DNA from: Candidatus Bathyarchaeota archaeon
Lineage (GTDB): Archaea; Thermoproteota; Bathyarchaeia; Bathyarchaeales; SOJC01
Direction of reading: 5' to 3'
DNA length: 43,265 bases
Assembly (NCBI GenBank): GCA_020352645.1
Contig: CP070683.1
Coordinates: 1,029,417 to 1,072,681, forward strand
In this document: positions 5,387-36,896 of the stretch, piece after piece
Layout of the letters: every line of letters begins with the position of its first letter
Position numbering within the stretch: position 1 is the first letter of the stretch
Notes under the pieces: generated by a model
Seen by the model: only the letters and a program-made list of their open reading frames with translations
Told to the model about the DNA's origin: nothing
The model's database searches: none
Made by a program: the position numbers and the translations under genes

Positions 5387-5392
5387 TTTAAA
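5387..5392 (+). promoter_or_regulatory. TATA box of initiator tRNA gene
   Basis: TTTAAA in the context CATTTAAAGC lies about 33 nt before the first tRNA base, consistent with a short 5' leader removed by RNase P. Confidence 0.55.
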
Positions 5393-5422: not shown

Positions 5423-5519
5423 AGCGGGGTGGGGTAGCCAGGTTTAACCCGCTGGGCTCATATGAGCTAGGCTCTGAGAGACCCAGAGATCGGTAGTTCA
5501 AATCTACTCCCCGCTACCA
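5423..5519 (+). tRNA. Initiator tRNA-Met (CAT) with 18-nt intron, CCA encoded
   Basis: The acceptor AGCGGGG (5423-5429) pairs with CCCCGCT (5509-5515), followed by discriminator A and encoded CCA (5517-5519). The D-arm stem is GGGT/ACCC. The anticodon stem CTGGG/CCCAG carries anticodon CAT (5459-5461). The T-arm is GGTAG-TTCAAAT-CTACT. The A1-U72 pair and the three G-C pairs at the base of the anticodon stem mark it as the initiator, not the elongator. The intron is 5463-5480, between positions 37 and 38. The splice site forms a full bulge-helix-bulge: CTCA (5457-5460) pairs with TGAG (5475-5478). It is flanked by the 3-nt bulges TAT and AGA and an inner GAGC/GCTC helix with a 3-nt loop. Confidence 0.95.
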
Positions 5520-12319: not shown

Positions 12320-13462
12320 ATGGAAGAGGTCAAGTCATTCAAAGATCTAAGCTTAGAAGTTGTTGAAGCGGGAATATGTGGTAAATGTGGTGGCTGCGTC
12401 TCTTTTTGCTCAGCTGGAGAACTCAACGCCCTAAGGATGGGGAAAAATGAGTTGCCGCAATACATCAGCGAGGAGAATTGCCTGAAATGTGGGATATGCT
12501 ATCTCATATGTCCCCAAACACACACGCTAGATGGCGAGCTCCAAGAAAAATTCAGCTGGAAGCTCCCTGTAGGAAGCTATCAGAAGGTAATCTCCGCTCA
12601 GACAACAAACGAGAAGATAAGAAAAATCTGCACAGACGGAGGAGTAGTAACCTCCCTACTCATGTACTTATTAGAGCGTAATCTGATTAATGGCGCAATT
12701 GTCTCAAAAAAGATTGGCCCCTTCGCTAGAAAGGCGACAATTGCGAAGACACATGAGGAGCTTCTAGAAGCAGCTGGTTCTGCATTCTCAGGATCTCTCC
12801 ACCTAGAGGAACTTGGGGGAAAATACACCACTTACACCCCGATACTATCCACAGTGAAGAGCCTAGAAGGAAAATATTTGCAGGATATCGCCGTCGTTGG
12901 AACTCCCTGCCAGATTAACGCGATCCGAAAGATGCAGTGCATGGGGATCATACCAGCTCACCTAGTAAAATACACAATCGGACTATTCTGCACGGAAAAC
13001 TTCTCCTTCGATGATGTAGCAAGAGAAAGATTGGAGAAAAAACTTGACATCAATCTGTCGGATATTGTCAAACTAAATATCAAGGACGATTTCATGATAA
13101 CTCTCACCAAAGATGTGACAATTCATATCCCCTTGGCAGAGATAGACGAGGTTGCTCGCCCAGCATGTTCTGCATGCCAAGACTTCAGTAATGAGTATGC
13201 AGACATATCTGTCGGGGGGCTTGGTTCGCCTGATGGATATACTACAACTCTCATAAGAACAGAATCAGGCTCATCAATCTTCGATGGAGCTCTTCGCAAA
13301 GGCTACATCCGAGAGAGAACCTTCGAAAGTGCCGAGGTGAGCAAATTGGAGAAGACGAAGATGATGGCAAAGATCGTCTCGCACTCTAGGAGAAAGAAGA
13401 TGAGAGCCAAGAAGAGGCTCTCGAAATTGACACGAGGAGGGGCTCTTAGTGGAAAAACCTAA
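12320..13462 (+). CDS. FrhB/FdhB-family iron-sulfur flavoprotein
   Basis: Coenzyme F420 hydrogenase/dehydrogenase beta-type subunit, 380 aa. It starts with two [4Fe-4S] sites (CGKCGGCVSFC and CLKCGICYLIC). FrhB landmarks follow: KICTDGGVVTSLL, VVGTPCQINAI, LFCTENF and ACSACQDFSNEYADISVGG with a GSPDGYTT loop. In the family this subunit binds FAD and exchanges electrons with F420 or, in some members, ferredoxin. The N-terminal clusters would pass them to HdrA. The tail is strongly basic. ATG 12320 is preferred over TTG 12317. It is the first gene of a nine-gene operon and overlaps the next gene by 14 nt. Confidence 0.88.
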   Translation: MEEVKSFKDLSLEVVEAGICGKCGGCVSFCSAGELNALRMGKNELPQYISEENCLKCGICYLICPQTHTLDGELQEKFSWKLPVGSYQKVISAQTTNEKIRKICTDGGVVTSLLMYLLERNLINGAIVSKKIGPFARKATIAKTHEELLEAAGSAFSGSLHLEELGGKYTTYTPILSTVKSLEGKYLQDIAVVGTPCQINAIRKMQCMGIIPAHLVKYTIGLFCTENFSFDDVARERLEKKLDINLSDIVKLNIKDDFMITLTKDVTIHIPLAEIDEVARPACSACQDFSNEYADISVGGLGSPDGYTTTLIRTESGSSIFDGALRKGYIRERTFESAEVSKLEKTKMMAKIVSHSRRKKMRAKKRLSKLTRGGALSGKT

Positions 13463-14738
13463 AGCAGTCTTGATTGTTGGAGGCGGAATTGCGGGTATTC
13501 AAGCCGCGCTCGACCTCGGAGATATGGGAATTAAGGTGCACTTGGTTGAGAAGAACCCGAGCATAGGAGGAAGGATGGCGCAACTCGACAAGACTTTTCC
13601 GACAAATGACTGTTCGATATGCATACTATCACCTAAACTAGCAGACTGCTTCAGACATCAAAACATAACCCTCCACACTCTATCAGAGGTCAAAGAGGTA
13701 AAAGGCCAGATGCGAGACTTTTCAATAAAGCTGCGTAAGTATGCCAGATTTGTAGATGAAGAGAAATGTGTTAACTGTGGGGATTGCTCCGCAAAATGCC
13801 CCGTGAAAGTGCCTGACGAGTTTGATATGAAACTAAGAAAGAGAGAAGCCATATACCCATACTACCTGCAAGGTGTTCCCGCGGTCATGACCATTGATAG
13901 GGAAAAATGCCTTTACTTAACAAGAGAAGTTTGCAAAATCTGCGAGAAATTCTGTGCGCGAGAGGCTATAGACTTTGAGCAGAAGGATACAGATGTGACG
14001 TTGCGCGTCGGTGCCATCATCGTCGCAACAGGCTTTGACCCCTATGATCCATCAGGAATATCCCAGTATGGCTATGAAAGGTATAGAAACGTGATCCAAT
14101 CCTTGGAGTACGAGAGATTAATATGTGCTTCAGGACCCACAGGTGGCCATCTCCTAAGACTCTCAGATAATAAACCAGCAGATAGAATAGCCTTCATTCA
14201 GTGTGTAGGGTCCAGGGACTTCAGAAATAACCGTTACTGCTCATCCGTATGCTGCATGCACGCGACAAAAGAGGCCATGCTTGCTTATGAACATGATCCA
14301 AAAGTGAAGTCTCACATATTCTATATGGATCTTAGAGCCGGCGGCAAAGGCTTTCAGGAGTATGTGTCAAGGGGAGAACAGGAATACAACATATCGTACA
14401 TCAGAGGAAGAGTAGCCAAGATCACCGAGGATCATGACGAGAATCCCATAATCTGGTACGAAGAAACCCAGACCTCCGAGACAAAGAAAATGACGGTGGA
14501 CTTGGCGGTCTTAGCGACAAGCTTTGTGCCACGGAAAAATGTGGAGGAATTAGCAGGAACCTTAGGCGTTGAGCTCGACGAACATGGTTTTTTCAAGACA
14601 GACCCTCTTAGCCCCCTGGATACAACAAGACTTGGAATATTCACCTGCGGCTGCTGTCGAGAGCCAACGGACATACCGGAGTCAGTAGCTCAAGCGAGTG
14701 GAGCAGCTGGGCGAGCTGCAGAAGCGGTAATGGGGTGA
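13449..14738 (+). CDS. hdrA: HdrA-like flavoprotein, short type with inserted ferredoxin (split module, part 1)
   Basis: A 429-aa relative of HdrA/QmoA. It has the FAD Rossmann motif VGGGIAGIQAALDLG and the HdrA-specific TFPTNDCSICILSPKL. An inserted ferredoxin has C107-C110-C113-C117 and a second unusual set C154-x7-C162-x2-C165-x3-C169. Then come FIQCVGSRD and a terminal GIFTCGCCREPTDIPESV. It lacks both the N-terminal iron-sulfur domain and the C-terminal ferredoxin of full HdrA; these occur in the next gene. Start is GTG 13449 after GAGGAGGGG. It matches the first half of the fused HdrA at 17227-20268. It is probably a cytoplasmic subunit of an electron-bifurcating complex. Confidence 0.9.
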   Translation: MEKPKAVLIVGGGIAGIQAALDLGDMGIKVHLVEKNPSIGGRMAQLDKTFPTNDCSICILSPKLADCFRHQNITLHTLSEVKEVKGQMRDFSIKLRKYARFVDEEKCVNCGDCSAKCPVKVPDEFDMKLRKREAIYPYYLQGVPAVMTIDREKCLYLTREVCKICEKFCAREAIDFEQKDTDVTLRVGAIIVATGFDPYDPSGISQYGYERYRNVIQSLEYERLICASGPTGGHLLRLSDNKPADRIAFIQCVGSRDFRNNRYCSSVCCMHATKEAMLAYEHDPKVKSHIFYMDLRAGGKGFQEYVSRGEQEYNISYIRGRVAKITEDHDENPIIWYEETQTSETKKMTVDLAVLATSFVPRKNVEELAGTLGVELDEHGFFKTDPLSPLDTTRLGIFTCGCCREPTDIPESVAQASGAAGRAAEAVMG

Positions 14739-14745
14739 CTGAAGC

Positions 14746-16419
14746 TTGGATGACGTGAGAGTCGGTGTTTTCATATGCCATTGTGGCACCAACATAGGAG
14801 GCTTTTTGGATGTTCTACGACTTGTTGATTACACCCAAAGCCTACCAAACGTTGCTTGTGCTAAGGACAACAAGTACACGTGCTCCGACGCAGGATTGAC
14901 AGAAATAAAAAACGCCATAGCTGAAAAGAAACTTGATCGTGTGGTCGTAGCCTCTTGTACGCCTAGAACCCATGAACCCCTTTTTAGATCAACCTGCAAA
15001 GAAGCAGGGCTGAACCCATACCTTTTCCAGTTTGTCAACATAAGGGATCAATGCTCTTGGGTTCACATGCAAGAAAGAGAGAAGGCGACCGAAAAGGCAA
15101 AAGCTCTCATAAAGATGGGAGTCGCAAGAGCAGCGTTGTTGGAACCTCTGGAAGAGACCGAAGTTGAGGTCACCCCGTGCGCCATGGTGATTGGCGGAGG
15201 AATAACGGGAATGACCTGCGCTCTCAGCCTAGCAAAACGAGACTTCGAAGTGAAACTAGTAGAGAAGGAAGAACGACTAGGTGGAACCCTAAACAGTCTC
15301 TACAGACTGTACCCAACACAAGACGAAGCTTCAAAGCTGATACAGGCGAAAGCTGAGGATCTCCAGAAGAACCCCAAGGTAGAAGTCTTAACATCTTCTG
15401 AGGTTAAAGAAGTCAAGGGTTTCGTAGGCAACTACGATGTCACAGTGAAGCACGGAGAGAACGACAGGTTACTCAAGGCTGGAGTAATAATAGTTGCAAC
15501 GGGCGCTGAAGCACTCAAGCCCACGAGTATGTACAGCTACAACGGAGAGAACATCATCTCCCAGATGGAACTGGAACAAAGGCTTGAAAAAGGAAAACTC
15601 AACGCCAACAAGGTTGTGATGATTCAATGCGTAGGGTCAAGAAACGAAGAAAGAGCTTACTGCTCCAAGGTTTGCTGTCTAACCGCCCTCAAGAACGCTA
15701 TGCTGATCAAAGAAGCTGACTCAAACGCCCAGGTTTTCGTGCTATATAGGGATATAGTTGCTCAAGGAACCCAATACGAGGACTACTACGGAAAAGCCAG
15801 GGAAACTGGTATAACCTTCATAAAATACTCGCCGGAAAGAAAGCCAGTCGTCGAGAAGGGATCGGTGAGAGTTTACGATGAGCTCTTGAACGAAGAACTC
15901 ACTATCCCCTACGATCTAGTCGTGTTGTCAACCCCCATGATTTCCCACCATGATTCCGCAATCCTCGCACAGAAATTGAAAGTGCCAGTGGACAAAAACG
16001 GTTTCTTCCTAGAAGCCCACGTGAAACTTCGACCAGTTGACTTCGCTACTGATGGAATTTATGTATGTGGCTGCGCCCATTGGCCAGCTGATATCAGCGA
16101 GAGCATTTCCCAAGCATATGCTGCCGCGTCTCGAGCATCCATACCCCTGTCAGTTGGACATGTGAAAACTGAACCTCTAACCCCAGTGGTTAATGAAGAT
16201 GAATGCACAGGTTGTAGCCTATGTGAGCTGACATGCTCCTTCCAAGCGATACGGGTAGAAGAGACCGAGAAAGGGAGGAAAGCCAAGGTGATAGCTGCCT
16301 CCTGCAAGGGTTGTGGGGCTTGCGGAGCCGGATGTCCTCATAAGGCAATTACCATGCAGCACTTCACAGATGAACAACTCCTAGCACAGATAATTTCCCT
16401 AGGTGAGGTGAAACCTTGA
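14746..16419 (+). CDS. hdrA: HdrA-like flavoprotein with N-terminal and C-terminal Fe-S domains (split module, part 2)
   Basis: 557 aa. An N-terminal HdrA domain (VGVFICHCGTNIGG, C11/C13) comes first, with TCSDAG and VVASCTPRTHEPLF. A FAD domain follows from about residue 144 (MVIGGGITGMTCALSLA), with MIQCVGSRN and YCSKVCC. Two C-terminal [4Fe-4S] sites follow, C487-C490-C493-C497 and C520-C523-C526-C530. It has no ferredoxin inserted in the FAD domain and lacks the NDCSxC motif. It is thus the complement of the preceding gene and corresponds to the second half of the fused HdrA. It starts 7 nt after the previous stop and overlaps mvhD by 4 nt. The C-terminal ferredoxin would contact MvhD. 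Confidence 0.92.
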   Translation: MDDVRVGVFICHCGTNIGGFLDVLRLVDYTQSLPNVACAKDNKYTCSDAGLTEIKNAIAEKKLDRVVVASCTPRTHEPLFRSTCKEAGLNPYLFQFVNIRDQCSWVHMQEREKATEKAKALIKMGVARAALLEPLEETEVEVTPCAMVIGGGITGMTCALSLAKRDFEVKLVEKEERLGGTLNSLYRLYPTQDEASKLIQAKAEDLQKNPKVEVLTSSEVKEVKGFVGNYDVTVKHGENDRLLKAGVIIVATGAEALKPTSMYSYNGENIISQMELEQRLEKGKLNANKVVMIQCVGSRNEERAYCSKVCCLTALKNAMLIKEADSNAQVFVLYRDIVAQGTQYEDYYGKARETGITFIKYSPERKPVVEKGSVRVYDELLNEELTIPYDLVVLSTPMISHHDSAILAQKLKVPVDKNGFFLEAHVKLRPVDFATDGIYVCGCAHWPADISESISQAYAAASRASIPLSVGHVKTEPLTPVVNEDECTGCSLCELTCSFQAIRVEETEKGRKAKVIAASCKGCGACGAGCPHKAITMQHFTDEQLLAQIISLGEVKP

Positions 16420-17198
16420 CTCCTCAAGAGGGTTTTTCACCAGACATCATTGGATTCCTCTGCAACTGGTGTTCTTACGCGGGCGCAGACCTAGCTGGAG
16501 TCAGCCGTTTTCAATATCCGCCAAATGTCAGAATTATCAGGGTCATGTGCTCAGCAAGAGTGGATCCAGCCATCGTTCTTGAAGCCTTTGTGAGAGGGTT
16601 GGACGGGATCATGGTCTTAGGCTGCCACCTCGGCGACTGTCACTACTTGACGGGGAACTACTACACCGAGAAACGCGTGAAAACCGTTAAAAGTGTCTTA
16701 GAGAGCGTGGGGTTATCCCCTGAGCGACTGCTGATCGATTGGGTGTCCGCATCTGAGGGTGAACGCTTTGCAGCCTTGGTAAAGGAGTTCACAGAAACAA
16801 TAAGGGAACTAGGTGCACTTGGCAAAGAAGCAAACTGTGACATACAACAGTTGAAGACCCGCTTGGCTGCGGCTAAAGAAACTCTTACCCGAGATAGAAT
16901 CAGATGGCTTGTGGGCAGAGAAAGAGAATTGACAGAGGATAAAAATGTCTTCGGTGAGAGAGTGACCCAAGAAGAATTCGATCAGCTAATGTTTCAAACT
17001 ATCGAAAAGGAGTTTGAGAAAAGGAAGATTCTCATCTCCATTGGAGATGACGCTCTCTCTATCAAGGAGATAGCTCGAAAAATGGAAGCATCTCCAGGAA
17101 AAGTGCTGAGAAACATAGTTTCTCTTGAGCATGACGGGTTGGTTTCGGTTGTGGGAATCGAAGGAAATAGCCCCAAGTATAGGAGAGTTAGAGGGTGA
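16416..17198 (+). CDS. mvhD: MvhD/FlpD-type iron-sulfur protein with C-terminal winged-helix extension
   Basis: 260 aa. The first ~140 residues are MvhD, which carries one [2Fe-2S] cluster and bridges HdrA to an electron-input module. Ligand candidates are C16 and C19 (LCNWCSYAGADLAG), C45 (VMCSARVD), and C70 and C75 (GCHLGDCHY). Residues about 140-200 form charged helices. Residues about 205-258 look like a winged helix-turn-helix (LSIKEIARKMEASPGKVLRN, then LEHDGLVSVVG). That addition is absent from the second mvhD in this operon. TTG 16416 overlaps the hdrA stop as TTGA, with GGTGAGGTG upstream. The extension might bind DNA or simply mediate protein contacts. Confidence 0.88.
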   Translation: MTPQEGFSPDIIGFLCNWCSYAGADLAGVSRFQYPPNVRIIRVMCSARVDPAIVLEAFVRGLDGIMVLGCHLGDCHYLTGNYYTEKRVKTVKSVLESVGLSPERLLIDWVSASEGERFAALVKEFTETIRELGALGKEANCDIQQLKTRLAAAKETLTRDRIRWLVGRERELTEDKNVFGERVTQEEFDQLMFQTIEKEFEKRKILISIGDDALSIKEIARKMEASPGKVLRNIVSLEHDGLVSVVGIEGNSPKYRRVRG

Positions 17199-17226
17199 AA
17201 ACCATGTTGGCGGTGGAAGACTCCGA

Positions 17227-20200
17227 ATGGTAAGCTTGCAGAATCCGGTTTCTGAAGTAAACAAAGTAGGTTCAGTGTTAGTTATAGGTGGGGGCATAGG
17301 AGGGATACAATCTGCGCTTGACCTAGCCGAGTCAGGCTTCAAAGTTTACTTAGTGGACAAATCCTCAACAATCGGCGGAGTCATGGCGCAACTGGACAAG
17401 ACCTTTCCAACTAACGACTGCTCCATGTGCATCTTGTCCCCAAAGCTCGTGGAGTGCGGAAGGCACTTGAACGTCGAAGTTTTGACATGTTCCGAAGTCA
17501 CAGGGATTTCTGGAGAGGTAGGCAACTTCAGTGTCTCAGTAAGACGACGACCAAGATATGTTGACATCGAGAAGTGCACAGGATGTGGACTGTGCGCCAA
17601 ATTCTGCCCAGTCGAGGCTATTGACACCTTCAACAAAGGGCTATGTGATAGAACAGCGATTCACATCAACTACCCGCAAGCCGTTCCTCTGGTGTACATG
17701 ATCGACAAGGAAAAGTGTATAGGCTGCGGACTATGCAGAAGCGTTTGTCTGGCGGACGCCATAACATACTCAGATAAAGAGAAAGTCACCACTCTGAATG
17801 TTGGTGCTGTCATTCTAGCCCCTGGTGCTGAGGAGTTCAACGCCAAGCTGAAGAGCGAGTACGGCTACGGGAGATATCCAAATGTGGTCACGAGCATTGA
17901 ATTTGAGCGTATTCTGAGCGCTTCCGGACCTTTCTCGGGACGGGTGCAGAGGCCCTCAGACGGGGATATCCCCAAGAAGATTGCATTCCTACAATGCGTT
18001 GGTTCAAGGGATGTCACATGTGGAAATAGCTACTGCTCCTCAGTTTGCTGCATGTACTCCACAAAAGAGGCAGTCATAGCTAAGGAGCACATGAATCAGA
18101 TTGAGCCAACCATCTTTTACATAGACATGCGGTCTTACGGCAAGGATTTTGACAAGTACATTAATCGCGCCAAGGAAGAATATGGAGTCAGGTTTGTAAG
18201 ATGCCGAATATCCAAAGTAAAGGAAGTACCTAACACTCAGAACTTGAGGGTGAAATACGAGACTGAAGATGGAAGACTCAGTGAGGAAGAGTTTGATCTA
18301 GTTGTCTTATCAATCGGCTTCACACCTTCCGAGAACATCAAGCAGCTGGCCAAAAACCTCGGTGTTGAGCTGAATGAGTATGGCTTCTCCAAAATCCAAC
18401 CTTTCTATCCCTTAGAAACATCCAAGCCAGGAATTTTCGTCTGCGGCATGTTCTCCTCGCCTAAAGACATCCCTGAAACCGTTACCCAAGCCAGCGCTGC
18501 CGCTGCCAAAGCTGGTGAACTGCTGTCTTCTGTTCGGGGAACTTTGGTGAAGAAGAAGGAGTACCCGGATGAAATGGATGTTAGGGGTCAGCCTCCGAGA
18601 ATAGGCGTATTCGTATGTCATTGCGGCATCAATATCGGCGGAGTTGTTGGCGTTCCAAGCGTTGTGGATTATGCTCGAACTCTCCCAAACGTCATCCATG
18701 CCTGTGACAACCTCTATACATGCTCTTCAGACACCCAGGAGATAATCAAGAACAACATCAAAGAATATGGACTGAACAGGGTTATAGTAGCATCATGCTC
18801 TCCACGAACTCACGAACCGCTCTTCCAAGAAACAATAAAGGAAGCTGGCTTAAACAGGTACCTTTTCGAAATGACGAATATTCGTGACCAGTGTTCTTGG
18901 GTACATTTACACGATCCTGAAGCTGCCACGGAGAAAGCAAAGGATTTGGTGAGAATGGCCGTGGCAAAGGCTAGAATGATAGAGCCCTTGGAAAGACTTT
19001 CCTTGGGCGTCACTCACCGAGGCCTTGTCATCGGAGGGGGATTGGCAGGAATGACCGCAGCTCTAACCTTAGCCAAGCAAGGCTTTGAAGTCGACGTAGT
19101 AGAGAAGAACCAAGAGCTTGGAGGCTTCCTCCGCAAGATACATCACACGCTAGAGCATGAAAACACCCAAGAGAACCTAAGAAACCTGGTTGAAAACATA
19201 AGTGCAAACAAACTGATCCAGATATTCCTCAATGCAAAGATCGAGGATGTCTCTGGCTACGTAGGAAACTTCAAAACAACAATAACTCAAGGCTCAGAGA
19301 AGATAGAGCGGGATCATGGAATTGTGATCGTAGCGACTGGAGGCGAAGAATACTCTCCAAACGAGTACCAATACGGAGAAGACCCTCGCATAATGACGCA
19401 GCTGGAACTAGAGAACAGAATCGCAACCCCTGACCTCGAAAAGCTTGGAAATGTGGTGATGATCCAGTGCGTAGGGTCAAGAAATGACGAACACCCATAC
19501 TGCAGCAGAATGTGCTGCGGAGAGTCAGTCAAAAACGCCTTGAAACTTAAAGGGAAAGCCCCAGACACTAACGTGTACATCCTTTACCGAGACATTAGAA
19601 CCTATGGTCTAATAGAAGAACACTACAGAAAGGCTCGCGAAGCCGGAGTGATCTTCATACGCTACAAGGAGGAAAGCAAACCAACAGTTACAAAGGCTTT
19701 GTCCGAAGGAAAGGAGGTTTTACATGTGTCAGTTTTTGACCCAACCATCCAAGAAGACATACTCATAGACGCAGACCTACTCGTTTTGAGCACAGCAGTG
19801 GTTCCACCCAAAGAAAACAGCATTCTGGCCAAGATGCTAAAGGTTCCTATAAATGAAGATGGTTTCTTCTTAGAGGCTCACGCTAAACTTCGACCAGTTG
19901 ACTTTGCTACGGAAGGCATCTTTGTATGCGGGATGGCCCACTCGCCAAAATCCATAGATGAAAGCATAGCCCAAGCAAAAGCAGCAGTCTCTCGAGCATG
20001 CAGCCTGTTGACGAAGGACGTCATAGAAGCTGAGGGAGTAATAGCTACCGTCAACCCAAATAGATGCACATCGTGTGAGCTCTGCATGCAGGTTTGTGCA
20101 TACAATGCCATAGAAATCGAAGAAACCAAGAGGGGAAAAACGGCGAAAGTTAACAGCGCTCTTTGTAAGGGATGCGGAGCTTGCGCTGCTACATGCAGGT

Positions 20201-20268
20201 GCTCAGCAATAGACATCAAGGGCTTCACGGACATGCAGCTAAGCTCGATCATAACCGCGATGAGGTGA
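17227..20268 (+). CDS. hdrA: Fused double HdrA (HdrA-like part 1 + part 2 in one chain)
   Basis: A protein of about 1013 aa. Residues 1-445 repeat the short HdrA layout: VIGGGIGGIQSALDLA, TFPTNDCSMCILSPKL, then two ordinary inserted [4Fe-4S] sites near residues 116 (CTGCGLCAKFCP) and 164 (CIGCGLCRSVC). Residues about 455-1013 repeat the long layout. They have RIGVFVCHCGINIGG, VIGGGLAGMTAALTLA, MIQCVGSRN, and C-terminal ferredoxin sites near 946 (CTSCELCMQVC) and 980 (CKGCGACAATC). It carries two FAD domains. One bifurcates in canonical HdrA. ATG 17227 is preferred, since it precedes the conserved fold and lies after the mvhD stop. The frame is open further upstream inside mvhD. Confidence 0.92.
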   Translation: MVSLQNPVSEVNKVGSVLVIGGGIGGIQSALDLAESGFKVYLVDKSSTIGGVMAQLDKTFPTNDCSMCILSPKLVECGRHLNVEVLTCSEVTGISGEVGNFSVSVRRRPRYVDIEKCTGCGLCAKFCPVEAIDTFNKGLCDRTAIHINYPQAVPLVYMIDKEKCIGCGLCRSVCLADAITYSDKEKVTTLNVGAVILAPGAEEFNAKLKSEYGYGRYPNVVTSIEFERILSASGPFSGRVQRPSDGDIPKKIAFLQCVGSRDVTCGNSYCSSVCCMYSTKEAVIAKEHMNQIEPTIFYIDMRSYGKDFDKYINRAKEEYGVRFVRCRISKVKEVPNTQNLRVKYETEDGRLSEEEFDLVVLSIGFTPSENIKQLAKNLGVELNEYGFSKIQPFYPLETSKPGIFVCGMFSSPKDIPETVTQASAAAAKAGELLSSVRGTLVKKKEYPDEMDVRGQPPRIGVFVCHCGINIGGVVGVPSVVDYARTLPNVIHACDNLYTCSSDTQEIIKNNIKEYGLNRVIVASCSPRTHEPLFQETIKEAGLNRYLFEMTNIRDQCSWVHLHDPEAATEKAKDLVRMAVAKARMIEPLERLSLGVTHRGLVIGGGLAGMTAALTLAKQGFEVDVVEKNQELGGFLRKIHHTLEHENTQENLRNLVENISANKLIQIFLNAKIEDVSGYVGNFKTTITQGSEKIERDHGIVIVATGGEEYSPNEYQYGEDPRIMTQLELENRIATPDLEKLGNVVMIQCVGSRNDEHPYCSRMCCGESVKNALKLKGKAPDTNVYILYRDIRTYGLIEEHYRKAREAGVIFIRYKEESKPTVTKALSEGKEVLHVSVFDPTIQEDILIDADLLVLSTAVVPPKENSILAKMLKVPINEDGFFLEAHAKLRPVDFATEGIFVCGMAHSPKSIDESIAQAKAAVSRACSLLTKDVIEAEGVIATVNPNRCTSCELCMQVCAYNAIEIEETKRGKTAKVNSALCKGCGACAATCRCSAIDIKGFTDMQLSSIITAMR

Positions 20269-29445: not shown

Positions 29446-31194
29446 TTGCCGAAGAAAGCGGACAAATATGAAGCCGTCAGTGAATTGGCTCGGCGTCGAG
29501 GTTTCTTTTGGCCTTCCTATGAAATATATGGTGGACTGAGTGGTTTCATATCATATGGTCACTTGGGAACTGTGTTGAAGCGAAAGGTTGAGGCGAAATT
29601 TAGAGACGTTTTCGTCACCCCACTCAACATTCAGGAAATCGAATCATCAATCGTTATGCCTGCAAAGGTTCTAGAAGCCTCTGGGCATGTCGAAGCGTTC
29701 AAAGAGCCCATGGTGAGCTGTCGCAATTGTGAGAGAAAATTCAGGGCTGATCATCTTCTTCAGGAAAAAGCTGGAATGACTGACACTGAAACTGAGAAAC
29801 TCAGTCTTGAAGAAATAGTAGAGAAAATCACAGAATACGAGATCACCTGCCCTGAATGCCAAGGCGAACTGGGCACACCGAAGTATTTCATGACAATGTT
29901 CTCCACAACCATTGGACCATACTCTGATGCTGTCGGCTATGGACGACCTGAAGCGGCTCAGAGCATTTTTGTGGACTTTAGACGAATCTATGAGACGGCT
30001 AGAGAAAGATTACCCTTAGGTGTAGTCCAGATAGGACATGCTCTGAGAAACGAAATATCTCCTAGGCAAGGGCCCGTGAGACTTAGGGAATTCACAATTG
30101 CTGACATCGAGTTCTTTTTCGACCCAAATGAACCCCAATGCCCTCAACTCAAGCAGTTTGAGAACGAGAAACTACATCTGATGCCCACAATATTGAAACA
30201 GAGAGACAGTGAGCGAACCTTAGAAATCACAGTGCGCGAAGCCCTGCAGAAAGGCTACATAAGAACAGAATGGCAAGCCTATTTCATGATCTTGGCAAAA
30301 CACTTCCTGGAGGCTCTTGGAGTTCCTGAAGACAAGCAACGATTCATTGAGAAGCTTGAGTGGGAAAGGGCTCATTACTCGGCTCAAGGTTATGATCAAG
30401 AGGTCTTTCTGGACAGATGGGGCTGGACTGAAGTTTCAGGTCACAACTATAGAACAGATTATGATCTGAAGCGTCATATGGAACACAGCGGAGTTGATAT
30501 GCAAGTATTCAGAGAATATGAAAAGCCAGTCAAAACAAAGAGGCTTGTTGTAGAACCGATACTTGCCAAAATCGGCCCTGTATTTAAGAAGAATGCATCA
30601 AAAGTGGCATCTCTGCTCTCTCAAGCCGACCCTAAACAGATTGAAGAGTCTATACTGAAAAACGGAGAGTACATTATTCAAGGAATGAAGATCTTGCCTG
30701 AATACGTCAAGATATCTCACAAAGACATTGACGAGACAGGAAGACGTTTCATTCCTCACGTCGTTGAGCCAAGCTTCGGCGTTGACAGACTCGTTTATGT
30801 GACCCTAGAATACTCCTACGAAAGACATGGAGATAGAACACTTCTAAAGCTTCCTAGAGAACTGGCTCCTATACAAATCAGCATCTTTCCTCTCGTCAGA
30901 AAAGATGGATTGGCGAAAAAAGCAAAACTGGTTTCGGAAATCCTTGCAAAAGAGGATTTTGCAGTAGAATATGATGAGGCTGGTTCGATTGGTAGACGTT
31001 ACGCCAGAGCTGATGAGGCTGGCACGCCTTTATGTATAACAGTTGACTATCAATCGCTGAAGGATGATTCCGTAACAATTCGAGATCGCGACTCATGGAA
31101 ACAATCACGTACAGGAATCAAGACCCTCGTCAAGAGCTTGCGCGACTATTATAAATTCAAGAAGGATCTCGAGGACATGGGAGAACTTCTTTAA
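29446..31194 (+). CDS. glyS: Glycyl-tRNA synthetase, archaeal/eukaryotic dimer type
   Basis: Charges tRNA-Gly; class II, 582 aa. It begins with RRGFFWPSYEIYGGLSGFISYGHLG, the usual N-terminus. A zinc-ribbon insertion has CRNC (near residue 87) and CPEC (near 140). Motif 2 lies around QIGHALRNEISPRQGPVRLREFT. Motif 3 is PHVVEPSFGVDRLVYVTLEYSYE. The C-terminal anticodon domain (from about 470) includes DEAGSIGRRYARADEAGTPLCITVD. It starts at TTG 29446 with a good ribosome-binding site. No in-frame interruption is seen. Confidence 0.97.
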   Translation: MPKKADKYEAVSELARRRGFFWPSYEIYGGLSGFISYGHLGTVLKRKVEAKFRDVFVTPLNIQEIESSIVMPAKVLEASGHVEAFKEPMVSCRNCERKFRADHLLQEKAGMTDTETEKLSLEEIVEKITEYEITCPECQGELGTPKYFMTMFSTTIGPYSDAVGYGRPEAAQSIFVDFRRIYETARERLPLGVVQIGHALRNEISPRQGPVRLREFTIADIEFFFDPNEPQCPQLKQFENEKLHLMPTILKQRDSERTLEITVREALQKGYIRTEWQAYFMILAKHFLEALGVPEDKQRFIEKLEWERAHYSAQGYDQEVFLDRWGWTEVSGHNYRTDYDLKRHMEHSGVDMQVFREYEKPVKTKRLVVEPILAKIGPVFKKNASKVASLLSQADPKQIEESILKNGEYIIQGMKILPEYVKISHKDIDETGRRFIPHVVEPSFGVDRLVYVTLEYSYERHGDRTLLKLPRELAPIQISIFPLVRKDGLAKKAKLVSEILAKEDFAVEYDEAGSIGRRYARADEAGTPLCITVDYQSLKDDSVTIRDRDSWKQSRTGIKTLVKSLRDYYKFKKDLEDMGELL

Positions 31195-31288
31195 AGGAAG
31201 CCGTTGAAAGCACTGGAGCGCGTTAGCTTTTTTAGTCAATCCGCATAATCTAGTGTAGTGCCTCAAAGGCATTTTCTGGGGCGAGAAA

Positions 31289-31948
31289 TTGGTTCTCCCA
31301 GTAGAAACAGAGGAACGTGTAAAACGAAGAGCTCTCACAGTTTGCCAGGATCATCTACGGCAGGTGCTGGAGATCACGAGGAAGGTCCCTCAGATGGTCG
31401 ATAGCTTTGCTGCTGATGACACGGATAAAGCGAGACAGGTTTTTGCTGAGATAAAACAAGCTGAAGAACAAGTCGATAAAGCAAGACGGATGGTTTCCCA
31501 AGAACTCGCTCAGATAGGGGCCATATTGATAAATCGTGAGGACTTTCTGCGTTTCACTAATTTGGCTAGCGAAATCGCCGACTTCTGTGAAGGCATAGCA
31601 TTCTGGCTTTTATCTGTTATGGAACGAGGATGGGCGGTCTCTCCGGAAATCAAGGGAGACCTCGTAAGGCTCGCTGAAGCAACATTAGACACCGTGATAA
31701 GACTTCGAGAGACTGCAATAACACTTTCCTACGGCTCCTCTAAGACCTTGGAGAAAGCCAAAGAGGTTGAAACTGCTGAACGTGTGGTTGACGAGATTTA
31801 CAGAGATCTTGAAGTCAAGTTAATAAACAGTGACTTGAACATTGCAGCGATGCTGCTTCTGAGAGAGGTCACACAGCTTCTCGAGAACGCTGCGGATAAA
31901 GCGGAAGACGCTTCAGACGCAGCTCGAATCCTATCTTTTGCAATGTAG
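31289..31948 (+). CDS. DUF47/PhoU-like helical protein
   Basis: 219 aa, almost all helical and charged. It matches the archaeal DUF47 (TIGR00153, PhoU-like) pattern: ARQVFAEIKQAEEQVDKARR, a DFCEGIAFWLL core, AERVVDEIYRDLEVKL, and LLREVTQLLENAADKAEDAS. Family members often act with Pit phosphate transporters and bind metals through conserved E/DxxxD pairs. No Pit gene is next to it here. The start is TTG 31289, with only a weak purine stretch upstream. The EndA gene follows on the same strand. Confidence 0.85.
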   Translation: MVLPVETEERVKRRALTVCQDHLRQVLEITRKVPQMVDSFAADDTDKARQVFAEIKQAEEQVDKARRMVSQELAQIGAILINREDFLRFTNLASEIADFCEGIAFWLLSVMERGWAVSPEIKGDLVRLAEATLDTVIRLRETAITLSYGSSKTLEKAKEVETAERVVDEIYRDLEVKLINSDLNIAAMLLLREVTQLLENAADKAEDASDAARILSFAM

Positions 31949-31964
31949 AAAAGCTTGGTCCAAT

Positions 31965-32519
31965 ATGAGCAAACCCATCAAGGTGGAGTTCATCGAAGAT
32001 TTTCTAGTGGTTTGGAACACCTCGCAGAGTTCCAAGCTCTACAAGATGGGCTATTATGGCAAACCACTGGGCATACCGAAGCCGAAAATTCCTGAGTTTA
32101 ACGTCCCGCTAATCCTGGATCTTATGGAAGGTCTATATCTGGCGGAAAAAGGAATTATCGAGGTGCAGGAAGGCTCCAAGAAGAAGGTTAAGCTTGAACA
32201 GCTCAGACAGCGAGCCCAGAAATTGTATGACGAGTTTGATCTCAGGTATGAGGTCTATCGTGATCTGAGAGACAACGAACTAATCGTTACCCCAGGCGTG
32301 AAATACGGGTGTGATTTTGCTGTCTACAAGCAAGGACCTGGCCTTGAACATGCTCCATACATGGTTTCAGTAAGAAAAGGCGACGAAGACTTGACTGCGG
32401 CTGAGATCGTGAAGGCTGGCAGGCTAGCAACAACAGTGCGCAAAAGATTCATAATCGCAATACCTGATCATAAAACTGGGCATATTGAATATCTCATATT
32501 CAAATGGTTCAAAGCCTAG
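31965..32519 (+). CDS. endA: tRNA-splicing endonuclease
   Basis: 184 aa from ATG 31965 (MSKPIKVEFIED). It cuts pre-tRNAs and pre-rRNAs at bulge-helix-bulge sites. The catalytic triad is Tyr121 (DFAVYKQGP), His129 (EHAPY) and Lys160 (VRKRFII). The His-Lys spacing of 31 is that of the known archaeal enzymes. The single-unit length fits a homotetramer (alpha-4), or the catalytic subunit of an alpha2beta2 enzyme if a partner lies elsewhere. The frame is open to 31938, but that part overlaps the DUF47 end. The window holds a natural substrate, the initiator tRNA at 5423-5519. Confidence 0.94.
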   Translation: MSKPIKVEFIEDFLVVWNTSQSSKLYKMGYYGKPLGIPKPKIPEFNVPLILDLMEGLYLAEKGIIEVQEGSKKKVKLEQLRQRAQKLYDEFDLRYEVYRDLRDNELIVTPGVKYGCDFAVYKQGPGLEHAPYMVSVRKGDEDLTAAEIVKAGRLATTVRKRFIIAIPDHKTGHIEYLIFKWFKA

Positions 32520-32536
32520 GTCAAAGGTGGCTCAGT

Positions 32537-33370
32537 ATGGCCAGAGTGGCTTTGATCAAAGGGCCAAGAAAGCTGGAAACAGTCTACCAAGCTGTTGAAC
32601 TTGCAGGCGGATTTAAACAAATATCGAAGCATCACTTGAGAGCATTAATAAAGGTAAATTTCATTTCAACAAAGACCTATGAAACAGGTGTCACAACTGA
32701 TCCCCTAGTAGTCGAAGGCTTGATCCGAAGCGCTCAGAAGGTTTTTGACCAGGTTCTTGTTGTAGAATCAGACGCCAGCATGACAGACGCTGATAAACCA
32801 TGCGAAATCACTGGTATAAAAGATATTTGTCACGAGACTAATACACGCTTCCTAAATCTGCGAAGGGAAAAAGATCGGCTGAAACTACGGATTCCAGACG
32901 GTGAAACTCTCACTCAAATCAAAGTTCCACGAATCGTGGTCGAGTCAGCTATCATCAATGCTGCGAAGTTGAAGACACATAGATCAACCGGCGTATCTCT
33001 TGGGCTAAAGAACATGTTCGGCTTGCTGCCGGATAAGATGAAGTTCAAATTTCATTTCAGAAACATAAGCAAAGTGATTGTGGACGTAAACACAGTTCTT
33101 TCACCAGATTTCACAATTGTTGATGGTTTCTATGCTCTTGAAGGGCCAGGTCCAACGTCTGGCACTCCAGTCAAAATGAATGTGCTGATAGCAGGTAGAG
33201 ACGTAGTAGCAGTTGATGCAACAGCATGTCGACTCATGGGTGTAGATCCGGAAGAAATATACCACATTAAGCGGGCCTATGAGAAAGGATTCGGCGAAAT
33301 TAGCGAAGAAAGAATTGATTTGATTGGCTCAAGCATAAATGAGATAAAGAGACACTTCAAGAGAAGCTAG
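32537..33370 (+). CDS. DUF362 family protein
   Basis: 277 aa from ATG 32537, with AAGGTGG upstream. It has the DUF362 layout: ALIKVNFISTKTYETGVTTD at the start, VLVVESDASMTDADKP, a middle ESAIINAAKLKTHRSTGVSLGLKNMFGLLP, then IVDGFYALEGPGPTSGTPVKMNVLIAGRDVVAVDATACRLMG. No CxxCxxC ferredoxin motif is present, though some relatives have one. The family function is not established. It follows endA by 17 nt and may be in the same transcript. Confidence 0.85.
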   Translation: MARVALIKGPRKLETVYQAVELAGGFKQISKHHLRALIKVNFISTKTYETGVTTDPLVVEGLIRSAQKVFDQVLVVESDASMTDADKPCEITGIKDICHETNTRFLNLRREKDRLKLRIPDGETLTQIKVPRIVVESAIINAAKLKTHRSTGVSLGLKNMFGLLPDKMKFKFHFRNISKVIVDVNTVLSPDFTIVDGFYALEGPGPTSGTPVKMNVLIAGRDVVAVDATACRLMGVDPEEIYHIKRAYEKGFGEISEERIDLIGSSINEIKRHFKRS

Positions 33371-33375
33371 AAACC

Positions 33376-33383
33376 CTTAAAAG
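33376..33383 (+). promoter_or_regulatory. TATA box of S30e gene
   Basis: CTTAAAAG just after the DUF362 stop; transcription is predicted near 33408, in front of AGGAGAG. Confidence 0.45.
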
Positions 33384-33429
33384 AACCCGAAAGGCATTTT
33401 CAAGCATACGTAGGAGAGAATGAAAGGAA

Positions 33430-33591
33430 TTGCCAACTCACGGATCACTTTCAAAAGCTGGGAAGGTACGCGGTCAGACTCCAAAGGCAACAGCAACCCG
33501 TAAGAAGAACTCTATTCCCAGGATAAGAGCTAGACGAAACTTCGAAAAGCGCATAGTTCTCCAACGCAAGCCTGGCCAAAACTGGGCCTGA
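33430..33591 (+). CDS. rps30e: Small ribosomal subunit protein eS30
   Basis: A 53-aa basic protein starting at TTG 33430 (PTHGSLSKAGKVRGQTPKA...), ending KRIVLQRKPGQNWA. The opening HGSLSKAGKVRGQTPK and the RIRARRNFEKRI segment are diagnostic of archaeal/eukaryotic S30e. It is a small-subunit protein without a bacterial counterpart. It has its own TATA box and AGGAGAG upstream. It is too short for many ORF cut-offs and uses a TTG start, so it is easily missed. Confidence 0.93.
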   Translation: MPTHGSLSKAGKVRGQTPKATATRKKNSIPRIRARRNFEKRIVLQRKPGQNWA

Positions 33592-33636
33592 TAAACGCAC
33601 AACAAGAAATGATTACTGCACATATCTTGCTAAACC

Positions 33637-33645
33637 TTTTAAAAA
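33637..33645 (+). promoter_or_regulatory. Strong TATA box of amidohydrolase gene, probably leaderless
   Basis: TTTTAAAAA is centred about 26 nt before ATG 33667, so transcription would begin at or next to the start codon. No ribosome-binding site is seen. Confidence 0.6.
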
Positions 33646-33666
33646 CGAATTCCCCCTAGGGTTCCT

Positions 33667-35238
33667 ATGGGTCACGCTGATTACGTTCTTCTAAACGGCA
33701 GAATCTTCACGATGAACCCCGTGCAACACCAAGCTGAGGCTGTTGCAATCAGAGACGGGAGATTTGTGGCCGTAGGATCCGACAAGGAGATTCTTTCATA
33801 TGTAGATCAAGACACTGAAGTGCTAGATCTAGACAATAGGGCCGTGGTTCCAGGGTTCATTGATTCTCATGTTCATGGTACCTCGTTAGGGCGAAGCACG
33901 TCTCAGATTAATCTACGCGTTGTGAAGTCAATTATAGAGATACGAAAAAGGATCATGCAGCGTGTGAGGCTTGTTCCCAAAGGTGATTGGATAATTGGCC
34001 GGGGCTGGGATCAGGACAAACTCATCGAGTGCCGTTATCCATCAAGGGATGATCTAGACACAGCAGCTCCGGAAAATCCTGTTCTGTTATTGCGTGTCTG
34101 TGGTCACTTGGCAGTGGTCAACTCAGCTGCGCTCAAGCTTGCAGGCATCACTAAGAATACAGATGAGCCCCAAGGCGGATATATCGAGAAAGATCCAAGA
34201 ACAGGCGAACCAAACGGTGTGCTGAGAGAAAACTCGCTTCGATTAGTTTTCGACGTTCTGCCGGAATCAACAGAAAAGTCACTTGAAAACACCTGCCTCT
34301 TGGCTTGCAGGAAAATGGTGGAACAGGGAATAACAACAGCCCATTGGGTAGTCAACTCCGCGCGTGAAATACGCTTGCTCCAAGCACTGCATGCACGCGG
34401 ACTACTTCCACTAAGAATATACCTCTTGATTCCAACTGAATGCATGAAAGCCCTCATTGACACTGGTCTAACTACGGGGTTCGGCGATGATAGGTTAAAG
34501 ATTGGCGCTATCAAGATAATGATGGATGGGTCTCTGGGAGCGAGAACAGCAGCCCTGAGACAGCCCTACAATGATGATCCTGAAACTCATGGAATGCTAC
34601 TTCACTCCAAGCTGAAGCTGAAGAGATTTGTGGAAGAAGCTCATAAAGCAGGTCTACAATTGGCGATACATACTATAGGTGATCGAACCGTCCAGCTTAC
34701 ACTAGACGTTCTGGAAGAAGTGTTGTCGAAATATCCACGTAGAGATCATCGTCACCGCCTAGAACATGCATCGGTTCTTGATGCTGAGCTTATACGTGAG
34801 ATGAAAGAGGTCGGAGTAATAGCCTCAGTACAGCCCCATTTCATAGTCTCAGACGTGTGGATAAATCGTCGCTTGGGGGCAGAAAGGACTAGATGGACAT
34901 ACTCATTTCGAAGTCTTTTGAAGGCAGGAATTACAGCAATTGCAGGCTCTGATGCCCCTGTCGAACCTGCTAGCCCATTACTGGGTATCTATGCTGCAGT
35001 TACAAGAGAGACTGTTCCTCAAGAGAGACTCTCAATGGACGAGGCATTAAGTCTGTACACTGCTACTGGAGCACACGGCTCCTTTGAAGAAGATGTCAAA
35101 GGCACTATTGAAAAAGGAAAACTCGCTGATCTAGTTGTGCTCTCACGAGATCCCTACGAGGTCAGTCCTCAGCAAATCAAAGAGATTCAGGTCGAGTTAA
35201 CAATCGTCGGGGGCAGAGTTGTCTATGCCCGAAAGTGA
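33667..35238 (+). CDS. Metal-dependent amidohydrolase (YtcJ-like, amidohydrolase 3 family)
   Basis: 523 aa. Beta-sandwich segments at both ends flank the barrel. Metal-binding residues occur in VPGFIDSHVHGTSLG (HxH), the KIGAIKIMMDGSLGARTAAL segment, LQLAIHTIGDRTVQ (His), HRLEHASVLD (His) and AIAGSDAPVEPASPLLGIYAA (Asp). The end GTIEKGKLADLVVLSRDPYE is typical. The family includes N-substituted formamide deformylases and many enzymes of unknown substrate, so no precise reaction is assigned. It has no signal peptide. It is probably leaderless and monocistronic. Confidence 0.9.
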   Translation: MGHADYVLLNGRIFTMNPVQHQAEAVAIRDGRFVAVGSDKEILSYVDQDTEVLDLDNRAVVPGFIDSHVHGTSLGRSTSQINLRVVKSIIEIRKRIMQRVRLVPKGDWIIGRGWDQDKLIECRYPSRDDLDTAAPENPVLLLRVCGHLAVVNSAALKLAGITKNTDEPQGGYIEKDPRTGEPNGVLRENSLRLVFDVLPESTEKSLENTCLLACRKMVEQGITTAHWVVNSAREIRLLQALHARGLLPLRIYLLIPTECMKALIDTGLTTGFGDDRLKIGAIKIMMDGSLGARTAALRQPYNDDPETHGMLLHSKLKLKRFVEEAHKAGLQLAIHTIGDRTVQLTLDVLEEVLSKYPRRDHRHRLEHASVLDAELIREMKEVGVIASVQPHFIVSDVWINRRLGAERTRWTYSFRSLLKAGITAIAGSDAPVEPASPLLGIYAAVTRETVPQERLSMDEALSLYTATGAHGSFEEDVKGTIEKGKLADLVVLSRDPYEVSPQQIKEIQVELTIVGGRVVYARK

Positions 35239-35294
35239 CTGGGGCAGCTACACCTTTATTTTGGAGCACGAACGCATAGACAGATGGAATTGTG

Positions 35295-36896
35295 ATGGAA
35301 AAAGCCGCTTGCCGTGAAATCATCAACTCATTAATGGAGATTGATGAACCCACCAAGGCAGATGTCAATTTGGTCAAGATACGGGTTGCCGGCAAGAAAC
35401 GGTTGAACCGTGTAGTTCCCAACTCGGAGCTAATACGTTGCTTGACTCAAAAGGAGAAGCTGAAACTTCTACCTCTATTGAGAAGAAAGACAACGCGTAC
35501 GGTTTCAGGTGTCACCACAGTTGCAGTGATGACGAAACCTTGGCCATGTCCACACAACGGTCCATGCGCATATTGCCCAGGCGGTCCTCAACGAGGAGTT
35601 CCACAAAGCTACACAGGTCATGAACCGGCTGCAATGAGGGGAATTCAGAACCGATATGATCCTTTCATGCAGGTTGAGAGTCGGATGAAGCAGCTAGAGG
35701 CGATTGGACATACAGTTGACAAGGTAGAGCTAATAGTCATGGGAGGCACCTTCCCATCCACTCCAATCTCCTACCAGGAGAACTTCATCAAGAGAAGCTT
35801 AGATGCGATTTCAGGTTGCGAGACCCAAAGCTTGGAAGAAGCTAAGAGATTCGCTGAAGTCAGCGCTATCCGAAATGTCGGCATTACGGTAGAGACCAGA
35901 CCTGATTGGGCTAGGACAAATCATGTTGATCACATGCTTCACTTGGGCGTGACTCGGGTCGAACTAGGTGTTCAGAATGTCTATGATGACATATATGAGC
36001 ACGTTAATCGAGGGCACACAGTAGAAGATGTCATTGAAGCGACGCGTACACTGAAAGACTCTGGCTTGAAAGTCGCTTATCATCTGATGCCTGGTTTGCC
36101 GAAATCAAATTTTGATAGAGATCTGCAGGGCTTCAAAAAGGTCTTTGCGGATCAGAACTTCAAACCAGATATGATCAAAATCTACCCATGCCTCGTGCTG
36201 AAGGACACTACAGCATATGAATGGTTGAGAAGAGGCGAATATACACCATACTCCACGCAGGAAGCAGCTTGGCTGGTCGCTGAGATAAAGAAAATGGTTC
36301 CTCCATGGGTGCGCATAATGCGAGTTCAGCGGGACATTCCAGCCAATCTGGTAGAAGCGGGGGTCAAGAAGAGCAACCTGAGGCAGCTCGCCCTTAAAAA
36401 GCTAGAAGTCGATGGTGATAATTGCGGTTGCATCAGATGCCGCGAGGTTGGACATCGATGGCTTAGAGACAGAGTCGAGCCTGATGCTAAAAGCATAGCG
36501 GTGAAATCAACAGAAGAGCGGGCATCAAGAGGCCTGGATGTGTTTGTTTCTGTTGAAGATTTCAGCAACAACATTCTAATAGGCTACTTGAGACTGCGTA
36601 TCCCATCAGAAAAAGCTCACAGACCAGAAATATCATCAGAGAAGTCCTCTATAATTAGGGAGCTTCACGTTTGCGGCTCTCTGGTGCCTGTTGGCAAACA
36701 CCTCGCGAAAGCATGGCAACATAAAGGCTACGGCCGGATACTTCTGTCCGAAGCCGAAAGGATTTCGAAAGAAGAGTACGACAGAAGAAAAATCCTAATC
36801 ACAAGTGCTTTAGGGACAAAGAGATACTATATGCGGTTCGGCTACACACACGCTGGTCCCTACATGTCCAAAATACTGGAGGACAACAAGATTTGA
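35295..36896 (+). CDS. elp3: Elp3: tRNA U34 carboxymethyl synthase (radical SAM + GNAT)
   Basis: 533 aa from ATG 35295. It adds the carboxymethyl precursor to wobble uridine of tRNA using acetyl-CoA and SAM. The radical-SAM cluster cysteines are C85, C91 and C94 in CPHNGPCAYCPGG. Further Elp3 motifs are VMGGTFPSTP, VRNVGITVETRPDW-type text, TRVELGVQNVYDDIYEHVNRGH and YHLMPGLPKSN. A C-terminal acetyltransferase domain begins at about residue 410 and includes WQHKGYGRILLSEAERI and GTKRYYMRFGY. As is usual in archaea, Elp3 appears without other Elongator subunits. GTG 35292 directly before the ATG is an alternative. The stop overlaps the gatD start (TTGA). Confidence 0.95.
   Translation: MEKAACREIINSLMEIDEPTKADVNLVKIRVAGKKRLNRVVPNSELIRCLTQKEKLKLLPLLRRKTTRTVSGVTTVAVMTKPWPCPHNGPCAYCPGGPQRGVPQSYTGHEPAAMRGIQNRYDPFMQVESRMKQLEAIGHTVDKVELIVMGGTFPSTPISYQENFIKRSLDAISGCETQSLEEAKRFAEVSAIRNVGITVETRPDWARTNHVDHMLHLGVTRVELGVQNVYDDIYEHVNRGHTVEDVIEATRTLKDSGLKVAYHLMPGLPKSNFDRDLQGFKKVFADQNFKPDMIKIYPCLVLKDTTAYEWLRRGEYTPYSTQEAAWLVAEIKKMVPPWVRIMRVQRDIPANLVEAGVKKSNLRQLALKKLEVDGDNCGCIRCREVGHRWLRDRVEPDAKSIAVKSTEERASRGLDVFVSVEDFSNNILIGYLRLRIPSEKAHRPEISSEKSSIIRELHVCGSLVPVGKHLAKAWQHKGYGRILLSEAERISKEEYDRRKILITSALGTKRYYMRFGYTHAGPYMSKILEDNKI

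Follow-up and report, generated by a model that had tools for sequence, protein, structure and literature searches.

A predicted 18-nt EndA-type intron at position 37/38 of the initiator tRNA gene in a Bathyarchaeota archaeon, and its place among the interrupted initiator genes of related genomes

The 43,265 nucleotides analysed here, which we refer to as the window, correspond to G000:C1:1029417-1072681 in the genome of a Candidatus Bathyarchaeota archaeon, whose assembly is a single 1.68-Mb contig with a completeness of 91%. The window contains a gene for initiator tRNA-Met (5423-5519) that is interrupted at position 37/38 by an 18-nt intron (5463-5480). The elements of this gene, of the predicted bulge-helix-bulge (BHB) around its splice junctions and of the splicing endonuclease gene in the same window are listed below. 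A slash within a bulge marks the predicted cut.

5387..5392, + strand: TTTAAA, resembling a TATA box and located some 30 nt before the tRNA, read from the sequence as a putative promoter in view of archaeal TATA spacing
5423..5462, + strand: 5' exon of the initiator tRNA-Met, 40 nt, positions 1-37, identical to intronless relatives
5457..5460, + strand: central helix, exon strand CTCA, positions 32-35 including anticodon bases 34-35 (pair check)
5461..5463, + strand: 5' bulge TA/T, predicted cut after 5462 (pair check; cut rule from the accessible part of PMC4307357)
5463..5480, + strand: 18-nt intron, absent from the otherwise identical genes of G001, G008 and G010
5464..5474, + strand: inner helix GAGC (5464-5467) with GCTC (5471-5474), loop TAG (5468-5470) (pair check)
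5475..5478, + strand: central helix, intron strand TGAG (pair check)
5479..5481, + strand: 3' bulge AG/A, predicted cut after 5480 (pair check)
5481..5519, + strand: 3' exon, positions 38-76, with CCA encoded at 5517-5519 (sequence, pair check)
31965..32519, + strand: EndA, alpha-like (catalytic) subunit of the crenarchaeal type with the specificity-loop lysine (homology, alignment)

Elsewhere in the window, at 13449-20268, HdrA-like flavoproteins are encoded in a row (13449-14738 and 14746-16419), and a 1047-aa protein (17125-20268) has two flavin-binding regions and ferredoxin-type Fe-S motifs.

Upon removal of the intron, the window gene gives a complete cloverleaf: all 20 stem pairs tested are present, one of them a G-U, and the anticodon loop reads CUCAUAA. 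The marks of an archaeal initiator tRNA-Met are all present, namely A1-U72, three G-C pairs 29-31/39-41 at the foot of the anticodon stem, and the anticodon CAU. By default, i.e. without its intron mode, ARAGORN miscalls 5423-5519 as tRNA-SeC(tca), which would make the gene one for a selenocysteine tRNA with the anticodon TCA. This view is contradicted by the intron mode of the same program, which returns tRNA-Met(cat) with an 18-nt intron, and by the finding that the spliced 79-mer is identical at 79 of 79 positions to the intronless initiator genes of G001, G008 and G010, three genomes of the same family. The selenocysteine identity was therefore rejected, and we regard its probability as negligible. 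A sequence-only reading that preceded this analysis had identified the gene as an initiator with an encoded CCA and had recommended a comparison with related initiator genes. Both assignments are borne out, the identity by the pair check, the intron mode and the match to the intronless relatives, and the CCA at 5517-5519. Separately, it was observed that an Rfam gathering scan of the window omits 5423-5519, though RF00005 scores 50.7 bits there, and initiators of the window type may be misannotated in public genomes.

The junctions are embedded in a canonical BHB, consisting of a 4-bp central helix, two 3-nt bulges and flanking helices. Each element that the sequence-only reading had listed at 37/38, including the 4-bp inner helix closed by three bases, was recovered in the pair check. 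In the accessible part of PMC4307357, the BHB cut is placed between bulge bases two and three. The exon boundaries are fixed and cannot be slid by even one base, because the neighbouring bases differ. When the 18 nt were shuffled 2,000,000 times, the complete central helix arose in 2.1% of the shuffles, and in 0.05% it was joined by four or more inner pairs. As TGAGAGA contains GAG twice, the isolated anticodon arm, when folded freely, favours a register two bases away from that of the BHB (-16.1 versus -13.0 kcal/mol, a gap of 3.1). For the whole precursor, the advantage over shuffled sequences is only moderate (z -1.7), with 11 of 200 shuffles reaching an equally good or better fold. Since the intronless twins match at 79 of 79 positions and the genome yielded no other initiator gene, the 18-nt insert is very probably an archaeal intron spliced by EndA.

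A second gene was sought in the window's own genome. BLAST gave one initiator match, and a pattern search gave 1 exact match and 19 more places with one or two mismatches. A reversed-pattern control also hit 19 places, no fewer than the mismatched places of the real pattern, and no tRNA lies at the single place with one mismatch. The sequence-only reading had considered that another intact initiator gene might be the functional one; none was found by BLAST or by pattern in this 91% complete assembly with N stretches, whose small gap leaves a slight chance that a further copy went unseen. This incompleteness and the partial masking of the assembly are what would speak for the window gene having decayed into a pseudogene that received its 18 nt by chance, the work being done by another initiator gene. 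However, the exons are identical to the relatives' intronless genes, a canonical BHB sits exactly at the splice junction and neither search found another initiator, so that we rejected this possibility as highly improbable. Among the other tRNAs of this genome, L011 has a CAT anticodon and a 14-nt intron according to ARAGORN, and L020, with a CAT anticodon by manual reading versus Ile(aat) by ARAGORN, has an insert in the variable region; both are without the initiator's first stem. By eye, inserts resembling non-canonical introns are seen in L020, L024 and L019, located in the variable region of the CAT tRNA (L020) and, for the others, on the D side of a CAA tRNA and in an anticodon region.

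EndA of the window starts with ATG at 31965, as had been proposed from the sequence. Its best chain matches are 3p1z (E 5e-44), 3ajv (1e-42) and 2cv8 (3e-42), which we take to be enzymes of Aeropyrum pernix and Sulfolobus tokodaii, and its crenarchaeal-loop lysine aligns with chain position 44 of 3p1z. Outside the window, the genome has another gene of the EndA family (catalytic-domain match at C1:421064-421318 of the genome, in an ORF of L149), which is beta-like. Whereas the window EndA has the full Tyr/His/Lys catalytic triad, the second product keeps Tyr and Lys and is without the catalytic His. The accessible part of PMC6379350 names Tyr, His and Lys for EndA and describes K44 of the A. 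pernix enzyme as important for broad specificity. Because a second, different EndA-family gene lies elsewhere, the splicing enzyme is most likely of the (alpha-beta)2 type, in which the second gene, by its homology and its lost His, would provide the beta subunit; an alpha4 EndA was rejected. The RtcB ligase gene is also present in the genome, which thus encodes both endonuclease and ligase. The earlier idea that every protein start depends on the EndA of the window was incomplete, as splicing would also need the second EndA-family gene and RtcB. Among the 101 genomes of the order, EndA-family matches number two in 82, one in 18 and none in 1; one match was found in G028, a genome with a four-intron initiator gene. 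As to gene context, the window EndA lies near translation genes (class-II aminoacyl-tRNA synthetase, Elp3 and GatE; 29446-40121), and the second EndA-family gene adjoins an ORF that was taken, by reading alone, for a histidyl-tRNA synthetase.

We are nearly certain of the account as a whole, namely that the only initiator gene found in this genome carries an 18-nt EndA-type intron at 37/38 and would be processed by an (alpha-beta)2 EndA and RtcB. The anticodon loop of the precursor would fold into the BHB, with C32-A35 pairing with UGAG of the intron. Both bulges would then be cut by the (alpha-beta)2 enzyme, formed by the window subunit and the subunit encoded elsewhere, and RtcB would join the exons to give the loop CUCAUAA. 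Within the lineage, introns at 37/38 would have been gained and lost many times, or inherited patchily.

The occurrence of introns was assessed in the 101 genomes of the order, of which 92 gave a BLAST match to the initiator; all 92 genes were read, and only figures for these 92 genomes represent rates. At least one intron was present in 43 of the 92 genes and none in 49, one of which is truncated (the gene of G075, cut by a contig end, was counted as having none). The sequence-only reading had started from the premise that the initiator is the single most constrained tRNA, which evidently is no bar to introns. The sites used were 37/38 (36 genomes), 4/5 (14), 59/60 (8), 47/48 (3), the D-loop (2) and 22/23 (1), and one intron per gene was found in 27 genomes, two in 13, three in 1 and four in 2. 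In the window's own family, a 37/38 intron is present in 4 of 13 genomes and absent, as is any other, in 9. It should be noted that differing D-loop positions were lumped into one site and that site names were converted manually from template positions. Furthermore, G059 has a D-loop intron that is cut off by the start of a contig and was entered manually, and the 4/5 introns of G066, G069 and G081, which failed the strict script test, were accepted by hand with three of four central pairs. The counts do not include the second copies present in G038, G096 and G098, nor G122, whose stretch has no CTCATA motif, nor the motif-less pieces L210, L211, L257, L268 and L269. The second copy in G098 seems to carry a 59/60 intron.

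Nine of the 101 genomes (G014, G027, G045, G057, G062, G071, G085, G095 and G097) gave no BLAST match. Two patterns were run over these nine and over three genomes with known genes, and the places read in the nine were not initiator genes: they lay in open reading-frame-like contexts, with one tRNA-His and one place without a tRNA. Possibly, the initiator of these genomes is more heavily interrupted, split, or absent from an incomplete assembly; G062 is 99% complete. For genomes where BLAST matched one half of the gene, such as G013, G022, G069 and G081, a trans-split gene was considered and rejected, as reading revealed cis introns.

A wider set of 148 genomes, in which those from outside the order had been chosen for partial or long BLAST matches and which is therefore selected and gives no rates, contained 54 genes without introns, 62 with one, 23 with two, 5 with three and 4 with four. 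It contributes two further genes with four introns and the additional sites 15/16 and 29/30, and its totals include G385 from another class, whose unresolved 5' end was counted as 4/5. Outside the class, a 37/38 intron of 14-20 nt was present in 10 of 10 genes read of family f30 and in one of f54, all likewise picked from long BLAST matches. Lastly, a pattern of the window tRNA with a gap of 6-36 nt at 37/38 matched the genome collection at 57 stretches, of which two share a contig. The labels of 53 were Bathyarchaeota, Bathyarchaeia or Bathycorpusculum, and the remaining four belonged to Nitrososphaerota (two), an uncultured archaeon (one) and miscellaneous Crenarchaeota group-6 (one). As this pattern was built from the window gene, it shows presence in these stretches and not absence elsewhere.

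The sequences of 79 unique introns at 37/38, the window's own included, were gathered. They measure 12-92 nt, with 29 shorter than 18 nt (12-17 nt), 6 equal and 44 longer. The proposal that the window intron is among the smallest able to form the full motif was consequently rejected, as 29 of 79 introns at the same site and that of L011 (14 nt) are shorter and the range given for archaeal tRNA introns in the accessible part of the review PMC4090602 is 11-129 nt. Thus, while the basic observation of an intron-bearing initiator tRNA was confirmed by computation, its interpretation held for identity, site, BHB, CCA, EndA start and, as far as searched, single copy, failed for size, and was incomplete in assuming one EndA. 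Although they differ in sequence, the 37/38 introns keep the BHB. All four central pairs are formed in 57 of 79 (shuffled mean 0.9, maximum 5, in 500 shuffles), at least three in 78 (mean 9.5, maximum 18, likewise in 500 shuffles), and two or more inner pairs in 62 (mean 11.8, maximum 24); these comparisons have a small bias, since real introns were slid to the best register within identical flanks and shuffled ones were kept fixed. The inner pairs vary in a compensatory way, the first of them being GC in 42 of the 79, CG in 22, GT in 8, AT in 3 and TA in 2, with 2 unpaired.

An alternative is that the intron is kept for a function, and ideas of intron function include masking of the anticodon until maturation, guiding of modification and shielding against integrating elements. 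Such a role would fit the pairing of C34 and A35 inside the BHB and the recurrence of introns at 37/38 across many families. On the other hand, the same mature tRNA is encoded without an intron in three genomes of the window's family, 49 of the 92 order-level genes are intronless, and neither sequence nor length (12-92 nt) is conserved beyond the pairing. We therefore consider a retained function unlikely, and patchy gain and loss or inheritance of EndA-spliced introns remains the preferred reading.

The most heavily interrupted genes carry four introns. In G063, the introns lie at 4/5 (23 nt), 37/38 (15), 47/48 (25) and 59/60 (24), and every one of them has its four central pairs complete; this gene (L135 = L114) is identical over 190 nt to LIHK01000023.1 of Candidatus Bathyarchaeota archaeon isolate BA2. 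G112 (L258) has introns at 4/5, 22/23, 37/38 and 59/60, again with four of four central pairs each, and G193 (L251) at 29/30, 37/38, 47/48 and 59/60, with three of four at 37/38. G028 (L137) combines a D-loop intron with introns at 37/38, 47/48 and 59/60; of the four central pairs, only two form at 37/38 and three at 59/60. The boundaries of the G028 D-loop intron and the G112 59/60 intron were set by hand, as the script's choice gave a poorer BHB. In G063, G112, G193 and G028 (completeness 92, 95, 67 and 90%, respectively), no other intact initiator copy was found by BLAST. At the 4/5 introns, the outer helix of the BHB pairs three bases of the leader (ACC with GGT), and EndA would therefore have to precede RNase P on these precursors. 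In one family (L042, L045, L048, L050, L058, L135 and L140-L145), the 4/5 intron is preceded by a leader, GGTGGCGGGG..AAACCGTAGCG, which is largely conserved by eye and resembles the tRNA's own 5' end.

Taken together, it is probable that the initiator of Bathyarchaeia has been interrupted repeatedly at eight sites (4/5, 15/16, D-loop 18-20, 22/23, 29/30, 37/38, 47/48 and 59/60), that four genomes of four families have reached four introns in differing combinations, exceeding the three per archaeal tRNA gene stated in the accessible parts of three papers, and that the BHB at 4/5, through its leader bases, would impose the order of EndA before RNase P. The papers on Pyrobaculum and Thermofilum (PMC3218864, PMC4390854 and PMC8450103, in their accessible parts) describe tRNA genes with two or three introns, up to three per gene, and PMC11291895 describes multiple introns in tRNA genes of the Asgard lineages Atabeyarchaeia and Freyarchaeia, with no maximum given in the part available. 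Like the initiator genes of the window's relatives, these genes contain multiple BHB introns and use non-canonical sites; the relatives reach four as compared to three in the Pyrobaculum and Thermofilum papers, whereas the window gene has one. A literature search on archaeal tRNAs for four introns in one gene found none, and the accessible part of PMC12918454 has nothing on Bathyarchaeia tRNA introns. Nevertheless, four introns are not certain to be a record, because PMC11291895 reports multi-intron genes without giving the maximum in that part.

The window intron itself is of a kind already known. According to the accessible part of PMC4307357, all three predicted CAU tRNAs of S. tokodaii, and therefore its initiator, and two of three in A. 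pernix are interrupted, with spliced and unspliced Met(CAU) forms tabulated. Like the window gene, these have a BHB at the junction, but the two organisms belong to a different class, and the initiator intron sequence is not given in that part of the paper. PMC3218864, as far as accessible, describes a permuted initiator in Thermofilum pendens and a split one in Nanoarchaeum equitans. Both are processed at 37/38, as is predicted for the window gene, which is neither permuted nor split, and the T. pendens permutation junction, 59/60, is a site that also holds introns in the window's relatives. Compared with canonical archaeal 37/38 introns (PMC4090602, accessible part), the window intron is the same in position, BHB and size range, 18 nt lying within 11-129 nt, and nothing essential is different.

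For the organism of the window, these findings imply that tRNA splicing should be required for translation to start, and they show that a tRNA finder run with default settings can give the initiator a wrong name. Beyond these two points, the window gene alone is of little significance, and the lineage-wide intron pattern is more interesting. With introns present or absent at identical sites, identical tRNAs and a widely shared two-gene EndA, the lineage is a good natural system. It is suited to asking how archaeal tRNA introns spread, whether the choice of site follows from EndA specificity, and which of EndA and RNase P is first to process a given precursor.
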